DNA of 64,000 bases, from positions 1-64,000 of the forward strand of contig NZ_QMIM01000020.1 in NCBI RefSeq assembly GCF_003287355.1. The letters are read 5' to 3'. Under the pieces are notes generated by a model. The model was not told where the DNA came from and ran no database searches. It was given only the letters and a program-made list of their open reading frames with translations. This DNA is from Halorubrum sp. 48-1-W (GTDB lineage: Archaea > Halobacteriota > Halobacteria > Halobacteriales > Haloferacaceae). This document shows, in pieces, positions 27,420 through 60,425 of the stretch. Numbering within the stretch: position 1 is the first letter of the stretch; each line of letters starts with the position of its first letter. The position numbers and the translations under genes were made by a program.

Positions 27420-27728
27420 TCACCACGTCGGCGGCGAGAACCCGGCGTTCTCGAGGAGGGGTTTCCAGCGTTTCTGGACCGAGAGTCGCGAGACGTCCAT
27501 GGCGTCGGCGACGGCGGACTGGGGGCGCTCCTGGCCGCGGATCAGCGCGGCGGCGTAGAGGCTGGCGGCGGCGGTGGCGGGTTTCGATCGGTCCTCGTCG
27601 GGGACTTCCGAGAGGAAGATGTCGGTCGCGGTCGAGCACGCGTCGTCGTCGAGGTCGAGGTCGGCGCAGGCCTCCTCGAGACGTTCGATCCACTCGGCGT
27701 TGTCGACGCGGTCACTCGCCCGATACAT
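27420..27728 (-). CDS. Half-size TFB-like protein (single cyclin repeat)
   Basis: 102-aa protein that matches only the second cyclin repeat of TFB. The segment DRSKPATAAASLYAAALIRG corresponds to GKSPVGLAAAAVYAAALLTN in the full TFB encoded at 59454-60425, followed by AVADAMDVSRLSVQKRWKPL, which matches the recognition-helix region of TFB. It has no zinc ribbon and no first cyclin repeat, so it could bind DNA (BRE) or TBP but not recruit polymerase in the normal way. The ATG at 27728 is chosen because a CTTTTGTAC box is 21-29 nt upstream. Confidence 0.75.
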   Translation of the reverse strand: MYRASDRVDNAEWIERLEEACADLDLDDDACSTATDIFLSEVPDEDRSKPATAAASLYAAALIRGQERPQSAVADAMDVSRLSVQKRWKPLLENAGFSPPTW

Positions 27729-27748: not shown

Positions 27749-27757
27749 CGTACAAAA
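27749..27757 (-). promoter_or_regulatory. TATA box of the half-TFB gene
   Basis: CTTTTGTAC on the minus strand, 21-29 nt from the ATG at 27728. It makes the in-frame ATG at 27755 unlikely, since that codon would fall inside the box. Confidence 0.45.
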
Positions 27758-27841
27758 GCGGTGCGTGCGGGGGAGGGGGTCGTACGGGTGTTCGGTGGCG
27801 TTCGTCAGGTTCTTGAGGTCGTTCCGTCTACGGTGGGTCGC

Positions 27842-27925
27842 GCGCGGGTAGCCAAGCCAGGAAACGGCGCAGCGCTTAGGACGCTGTCCCGTAGGGGTCC
27901 GCCGGTTCAAATCCGGTCCCGCGCA
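27842..27925 (+). tRNA. tRNA-Leu (anticodon UAG)
   Basis: 84-nt class II tRNA. Acceptor GCGCGGG pairs with CCCGCGC. The anticodon stem-loop CAGCG-CTTAGGA-CGCTG gives UAG. A long variable arm follows (CCCGTAGGGG region), then the T-arm CCGGTTCAAATCCGG, with A as discriminator. No intron and no encoded CCA. It reads CUA/CUG leucine codons. Confidence 0.95.
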
Positions 27926-27952
27926 CTGAGGAGCGAAGCGACGAGGGAGCAG

Positions 27953-59453: not shown

Positions 59454-60425
59454 ATGACCGAACGACTACATGCCCGGGGGAGTCGCACCCGTGGGGAGAC
59501 GGAGGAGGAATCGGAACGTACCGACGAGACGCTGAGCTGTCCCGAGTGTGACGGCCAGGTCATCAACGACGAGGAGCACGGCGAGACGGTGTGTGCGGAC
59601 TGCGGGCTCGTCGTCGAGGCGGACTCGGTCGACCGCGGGCCGGAGTGGCGCGCGTTCGACTCCCGCGAGAAGGACGAGAAGTCCCGCGTGGGCGCGCCCA
59701 CGACCAACACGATGCACGACAAGGGGCTGTCGACGAACATCGACTGGCGTGACAAGGACGCGTACGGCCGCTCGCTCGGCGCGCGCCAGCGGCAGAAGAT
59801 GCAACGGCTCCGCAAGTGGAACGAGCGGTTCCGGACGCGCGACTCCAAAGAGCGCAACCTGAAGCAGGCGCTCGGCGAGATCGACCGCATGGCCTCGGCG
59901 CTCGGGCTCCCCGACAACGTCCGCGAGACCGCCTCCGTCATCTACCGCCGCGCGCTCGACGAGGACCTGCTTCCCGGCCGGTCCATCGAGGGCGTCTCGA
60001 CGTCGTGTGTCTACGCTGCCGCCCGGATGGCCGGCGTCCCCCGGAGCCTCGACGAGATCGCCGACGTCTCCCGCGTGGAGAAGGCGGAGATCGCCCGAAC
60101 GTACCGCTACGTCGTCCGCGAGCTCAAACTCGAGGTCAAGCCCGCCGACCCCGAACAGTACGTCCCGCGGTTCGCCTCCGACCTCGAGCTCTCCGAGGAG
60201 TCGGAGATGCGCGCGAAGAGCCTCTTGAAGAACGCCAAGGAGAAGGGCGTCCACAGCGGGAAGTCGCCGGTCGGGCTCGCGGCCGCCGCCGTCTACGCCG
60301 CCGCCCTCCTCACCAACGAGAAGACGACGCAGGCCGCCGTCTCCGAGGTCGCGGACATCTCCGAGGTCACGATCCGCAACCGCTACCACGAACTGCTCGA
60401 GGCCGAGGACGGTCTCGTCGCGTAA
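59454..60425 (+). CDS. tfb: Transcription initiation factor TFB
   Basis: 323-aa archaeal TFIIB. The zinc ribbon is LSCPECDGQVINDEEHGETV and CADCGLV (about residues 28-54); the B-reader/linker has RVGAPTTNTMHDKGLSTNID. Two cyclin repeats follow at about 125-215 and 220-315, ending with ISEVTIRNRYHELLEAEDGL. It recruits RNA polymerase to TBP-bound promoters. Haloarchaea have many TFB paralogues, so which TFB this is cannot be told. A truncated relative is encoded at 27420-27728. Confidence 0.96.
   Translation: MTERLHARGSRTRGETEEESERTDETLSCPECDGQVINDEEHGETVCADCGLVVEADSVDRGPEWRAFDSREKDEKSRVGAPTTNTMHDKGLSTNIDWRDKDAYGRSLGARQRQKMQRLRKWNERFRTRDSKERNLKQALGEIDRMASALGLPDNVRETASVIYRRALDEDLLPGRSIEGVSTSCVYAAARMAGVPRSLDEIADVSRVEKAEIARTYRYVVRELKLEVKPADPEQYVPRFASDLELSEESEMRAKSLLKNAKEKGVHSGKSPVGLAAAAVYAAALLTNEKTTQAAVSEVADISEVTIRNRYHELLEAEDGLVA

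Follow-up and report, generated by a model that had tools for sequence, protein, structure and literature searches.

A conserved one-repeat paralogue of TFB with a rewritten recognition helix in the Halobacteriales

Can a single cyclin repeat of the general transcription factor TFB exist as a gene of its own, and which DNA would its product read? The question is raised by a small gene in a stretch of 64,000 nucleotides from Halorubrum sp. 48-1-W, here called the window. A sequence-only reading of this DNA had matched the 102-aa product to the second repeat of TFB and proposed a half-TFB that could regulate by competing for TBP or BRE sites. The features discussed below are compiled in Table 1.

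Table 1. Features of the one-repeat locus, with positions in the window
Feature	Position	Strand	Basis or remark
One-repeat TFB paralogue, CDS with stop codon	27420..27728	-	ATG, 102 codons, stop; Pfam and TFB-model matches
Recognition helix, residues 81-94	27447-27488	-	AlphaFold model; residue counts vs TFB second repeats
Helix-turn-helix, residues 70-94	27447..27521	-	AlphaFold model, helices 70-77 and 81-94
TATA-like box of the one-repeat gene	27751..27757	-	23-29 bases upstream of ATG, leaderless layout; position kept over 61 loci
CGTCAGGTTCTTG, local CGACA-type element and T-rich box in the tRNA-Leu promoter	27803..27815	+	Proposed candidate site
tRNA-Leu (anticodon UAG), divergent neighbour	27842..27926	+	113 bp from start codon of the one-repeat gene

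Domain content and repeat of origin

The one-repeat protein exceeds the Pfam gathering score for the TFIIB repeat PF00382 (E 8.3e-6, 26.2 bits vs a cut-off of 23.6), and all 61 orthologues match the same domain with E values of at most 0.01. Against the NCBIfam TFB model, the alignment is confined to positions 223-305 of 312, which is the second repeat, and reaches 28.7 bits vs a cut-off of 384. The match to the second repeat claimed by the sequence-only reading is thus borne out, with exact coordinates; so is the claimed absence of further TFB parts, PF00382 being the sole Pfam domain over its cut-off and zinc ribbon, B-reader and first repeat being absent from the 102 aa. The protein has neither the two cyclin repeats of a TFB nor the zinc ribbon kept by TFB3-like proteins. 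A phmmer search of the PDB retrieved TFB of Pyrococcus woesei (E 1.8e-6), as did a profile of the 61 orthologues (E 2.5e-20), and on chain 1d3u_B this profile scores 49.4 bits on repeat 2 vs 25.3 on repeat 1.

The genome itself holds 21 TFIIB-repeat matches, of which 20 occur in pairs in ten TFB-like genes and one is the lone one-repeat gene; 8 zinc ribbons pass the cut-off. The full TFB that had been noted at 59454 is real according to domain and TFB-model matches and spans 59454-60425 of the window. Two further TFB-like proteins of this genome deviate from the usual architecture. One of 217 aa (positions 1438-2091 of locus L019, contig C33) carries a weak pair of TFIIB repeats, has no zinc ribbon that passes the cut-off, and represents a second reduced TFB; the other (locus L012, contig C24) has 392 aa with a long C-terminal tail and a strongly degenerate second repeat (0.8 bits to the profile of the one-repeat family).

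The family alignment, comprising 61 non-redundant orthologues with a mean column identity of 66%, served as input for AlphaFold. Invariant in all 61 are M1, A4, A34, L39, A54, Y58, Q70, A74, V79, R81, G96, P100, and W102. The resulting model shows six helices (pLDDT 93.9, pTM 0.87); TFB and TFIIB come first in Foldseek, and VIA-align places TFIIB/TFB rows (Z 14.9 to 13.7) ahead of cyclin-type rows (12.8 and lower). Structure prediction, proposed earlier as a check, therefore returned the cyclin-box fold. It is less informative on the repeat of origin: both cyclin repeats of TFB share one common fold, and the chain range superposed by VIA-align is presumably repeat 1. A tree built from 69 repeats recovered the one-repeat family as a single clade (100/100) within a branch that contains the haloarchaeal second repeats (96/96). 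The stem of the family measures 1.67 changes per column, and the tree is based on few columns and includes long branches. Under these same conditions, the AU test did not reject a grouping with first repeats (p 0.375). The phylogenetic check of the earlier proposal hence came out in favour of the second repeat in the best tree, with the first-repeat grouping still compatible with the data. Q70 is common to the family and to second repeats only and does not occur in first repeats. Taken together, sequence and best tree place the protein with repeat 2 and the structural alignment with repeat 1, and the sequence evidence points to repeat 2.

What is left of TFB in this protein bears on one of the possible roles. 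It could act in trans as an initiation co-factor at a subset of promoters, joining TFB, TBP or RNA polymerase there. The analogy is Sulfolobus TFB3, described in the available passages of PMC7289017 as a TFB paralogue acting in trans with canonical TFB, and the invariant terminal residues M1, A4, G96, P100, and W102 could be protein contacts. None of the polymerase-touching parts of TFB is present, however, and no lone first-repeat partner stood out among the TFIIB-repeat matches of the genome, which leaves this role a rather unlikely one.

Conservation within the order

The class search covered 292 genomes, all Halobacteriales by kinship grouping, and 287 of them contain a strong orthologue (best match E 1.1e-24 or better) that nearly always has 102 aa. 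Among the matches listed, orthologues cover residues 1-102 or 2-102, and 20 weaker ones were recovered again. Three of the 292 genomes (G021, G217, G285) gave matches only in TFB-sized frames and hold no one-repeat gene. In G205, which has no orthologue match, the tRNA-Leu lies three bases from the contig edge, so the gene is probably located just beyond the contig. In G183, start and end of the gene are present (1501-1705 of locus L145), about 100 bases between them are lost and the frame is changed; this broken copy may be a pseudogene or an assembly error. The family of G012 has the gene in 25 of 26 genomes, the sole genome without it being 72% complete. The gene is single-copy in the 25 genomes examined for copy number. 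Among the closest orthologues, those from named genomes belong almost exclusively to Halorubrum, and the nearest one (94%) is labelled Halobellus captivus.

A phylum search of 246 genomes included 203 from outside the Halobacteriales, and the one-repeat gene was found in none of these 203. Six of them yielded no match at E 0.001, and the other 197 yielded partial matches with a best E of 4.7e-15; among the matches listed outside the order, the frames have about 250-360 aa, i.e. they are TFBs. An apparent gene-bearing outgroup, 'Actinarchaeum halophilum' (L100), was discarded, its taxonomy being Halocatena halophila of the Halobacteriales. In an RpoB tree of 26 genomes, six of them outgroup, G021, G217, and G285 form one clade (100/98) that is sister to all 17 gene-bearing rows (99/96) and constitutes the deepest branch of the order. 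This topology implies a single event near the haloarchaeal base, either a gain of the gene after the three genomes had branched off or a loss in their own lineage. The RpoB match of one genome (G044, locus L308) holds an in-frame TAA, due to a sequencing error or to a broken or split gene. A mobile or viral origin received no support, as IMG/VR, the PLSDB plasmids and phages contained no relatives of the gene, although these are weak negatives.

Substitution patterns agree with this persistence. The dN/dS ratio amounts to 0.14-0.56 against 13 relatives, with higher values in more distant pairs. Among 117 orthologues with a length of 102 aa, a set that includes near copies, differences per pair average 44.2 at third codon positions vs 23.0 at first and 18.7 at second positions, which makes third positions about twice as variable. 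These comparisons indicate that the gene is under purifying selection.

The gene also has its own promoter. Upstream of the start codon (ATG in 43 and GTG in 18 of 61 non-redundant loci), A+T content reaches 84-93% at -29 to -26 and is high again at -11/-10. The A+T-rich box extends from -30 to -23 and shows a strict TATA-like pattern in 43 of the 61 loci. A box at about -29 to -26 combined with A+T-rich positions -11/-10 is the usual layout of leaderless haloarchaeal promoters, and the leaderless, normal promoter proposed earlier is corroborated by the constant position of the box over the 61 loci. A scan for sigma-70-type promoters and terminators found nothing, as expected in an archaeon.

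It had been conceded beforehand that degradation in relatives would speak against a functional half-TFB. The broken G183 copy fits a decaying, functionless TFB fragment, but length and sequence are kept across the order (287 of 292 genomes), selection is purifying and the promoter is conserved; conservation already contradicts decay, and its probability is negligible. The locus is a real gene and more than a fragment: it encodes a one-repeat TFB paralogue that is core to this lineage and specific for it, and whose reading helix has been rewritten.

Recognition helix and candidate target

The helix-turn-helix is the best-conserved part of the protein. Comparison of the 61 orthologues with 25 TFB second repeats (16 haloarchaeal, 9 from other classes) showed that Q70, V73, V79, and R87 are common to both, so the scaffold is retained, and that the residues of the recognition helix are not those of TFB. 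Position 85 is Arg in 25/25 second repeats, whereas the one-repeat family has Gln in 57, His in 3, and Ser in 1 of 61. Glu81 (22/25) is replaced by Arg in 61/61, Val82 (23/25) by Leu in 58/61, and Tyr88 (24/25) by Trp in 59/61. Positions 82 and 85 are taken to correspond to V283 and R286 of human TFIIB, which read the BRE. A uniform replacement kept over the whole order argues for a new, fixed specificity of a predicted DNA-binding protein.

These residues weigh on the earlier idea of a general competitor, which would occupy BRE sites or TBP and dampen initiation at many promoters. Its basis stands: the protein is a conserved homologue of the TFB second repeat with its own promoter and retains the helix-turn-helix scaffold of the very domain that reads the BRE (second cyclin fold; available passages of PMC7289017). 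Competition for the BRE itself fares worse. Because fixed positions of the recognition helix carry residues other than those of TFB (Arg to Gln in 57/61, Glu to Arg in 61/61), the ordinary BRE is probably not the target site. Moreover, the first repeat is missing, and the TBP contacts of TFB probably lie largely in or beside it. General competition is thus weakened and appears unlikely.

A DNA-binding regulatory role is a reasonable reading of the sequence data, and a stand-alone regulator that reads a site of its own is favoured as a better guess than a general competitor. The preferred explanation, to which a probability of about 0.55 is assigned, is that the second repeat of a haloarchaeal TFB became an autonomous cyclin-fold helix-turn-helix protein. 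According to sequence comparison and the structural model, it would bind a DNA sequence other than the ordinary BRE and act as a local transcription regulator, either repressor or activator. It would hardly serve as an initiation factor, since the zinc ribbon, which recruits RNA polymerase, and the B-reader are absent.

A candidate for such a site is offered by the neighbouring tRNA-Leu(UAG). Of 61 non-redundant loci, 49 have this tRNA divergent to the one-repeat gene, and the other orientation does not occur (49/49); the distance is within 120 bp in 30 loci, 121-250 bp in 3, 251-1000 bp in 12, and larger in 4. The remaining 12 loci have no tRNA-Leu(UAG) within the examined flank. A CG[AT]CA motif occurs in 86 of 127 distinct tRNA-Leu(UAG) promoters vs 4 of 64 other tRNAs, and a CGAAA-type motif in 12 of 127 vs 27 of 64 other tRNAs of the order, counts in which many rows are close relatives and for which the patterns were chosen after looking. 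The genomes without the one-repeat gene have an ordinary tRNA-Leu(UAG) promoter (3/3), which counts as one event because all belong to one clade. A looser form of the element is missing in 8 of the 49 loci that combine gene and divergent tRNA, and G002, G066, and G128 have the gene without the element.

In one genus of Halobacteriaceae (g24, loci L234-L252), the tRNA-Leu(UAG) promoter has a strongly conserved AACGCAATTCTC replacing CGACAGGTTCTT. Covariation of helix and element (family f2 and others) is not strict and was dropped as evidence: a change of residue 83 from Ser to Val/Ala seemed at first to track the loss of CGACA, yet Ser83 persists in L235 next to a changed element, and the element (CGACAC) occurs in both G160 and G274 despite the divergent helix of G160 (L142). 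Autoregulation through the CGACA-type element was rejected, since the element stays with the tRNA where the one-repeat gene has moved away.

The link between the protein and the tRNA-Leu(UAG) promoter is accordingly suggestive only. If the regulator has a local site, the likeliest would be the CGACA-type element, where the protein might block or tune TFB/TBP assembly; this assignment is tentative and, by itself, improbable. Slightly more speculative is a private pair of BRE and BRE-reader, in which the one-repeat protein would control tRNA-Leu(UAG) alone, and with it the decoding of CUN leucine codons, apart from the global TFB set. Such a pair would have arisen when the second repeat was freed near the haloarchaeal base and the tRNA-Leu(UAG) promoter gained its non-standard element.

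The tRNA may be a bystander, because the neighbourhood is conserved as a whole and old synteny may explain its presence. Judged by eye from product names, a convergent CoaD-like gene adjoins the one-repeat gene in 25 of 28 loci; 23 loci have an HTH gene and 22 a GshA-like gene. Upstream, beyond the tRNA-Leu, a DisA_N-like (DacZ-type) gene occurs in 11 and an MscS-like gene in 10 of the 28 loci, again by names; this conserved DisA_N-like/MscS-like neighbourhood lies in L093 between -1248 and -427, counted from the start of the one-repeat gene, and recurs at corresponding positions in 10 other loci. A Nop5-fibrillarin pair adjoins the gene only in part of the Halorubrum group and lies, where found, on the other strand at a variable distance downstream. 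With the CoaD-like gene next in 25/28 loci and this distance variable, a functional link to fibrillarin/Nop5 was rejected. The same observations concern a role away from promoters, namely RNA binding or protein scaffolding, e.g. in the biology of tRNA or rRNA. Both neighbours, tRNA-Leu and the Nop5-fibrillarin pair, would suit it, but the latter is restricted as described and the helix-turn-helix is the best-kept part of the protein, so that such a role seems quite improbable.

Relation to known factors

Archaeal gene control is usually described as a combination of eukaryote-like general factors and bacteria-like regulators. If the preferred explanation holds, a regulator cut from the general factor TFB and kept by nearly every haloarchaeon would represent a third route of control and would show how a promoter-reading domain turns gene-specific. 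In addition, a core member seems to have been omitted from counts and trees of haloarchaeal TFBs. The gene is small and belongs to an order with good genetics.

The open-access literature searched contained no paper describing the one-repeat protein. The haloarchaeal TFB expansion is ancient according to the accessible parts of a TFB survey whose authors manually excluded 'highly divergent and fragmentary sequences' (PMC4230888); on account of this exclusion, the one-repeat family was probably omitted there. Two core haloarchaeal groups of TFIIB homologues, cHOG0004 and cHOG0018, are given in the available part of PMC3287961, and the available passages of PMC5605881 do not name the protein. 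The sole match to HVO numbers guessed from presumed neighbours is a passage of PMC11899642 that concerns a globin gene.

The second repeat of archaeal TFB and eukaryotic TFIIB (P. woesei TFB, PDB 1d3u and 1ais) has in common with the one-repeat protein the cyclin fold with a helix-turn-helix and the residues Q70, V73, V79, and R87. The one-repeat protein differs in having a single cyclin repeat and neither zinc ribbon nor B-reader, in four exchanges within the recognition helix (Glu to Arg, Val to Leu, Arg to Gln, Tyr to Trp), and in a linker between helices 2 and 3 that is shorter by three residues. The haloarchaeal TfbA-G belong to the same superfamily and occur in the same genomes, but they are full-length. 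Sulfolobus TFB3 keeps the zinc ribbon and is devoid of the BRE-reading part; the one-repeat protein is its opposite, with only the BRE-reading part kept. Both are TFB paralogues of reduced architecture, and for TFB3 a regulatory role is described in the available passages of PMC7289017.
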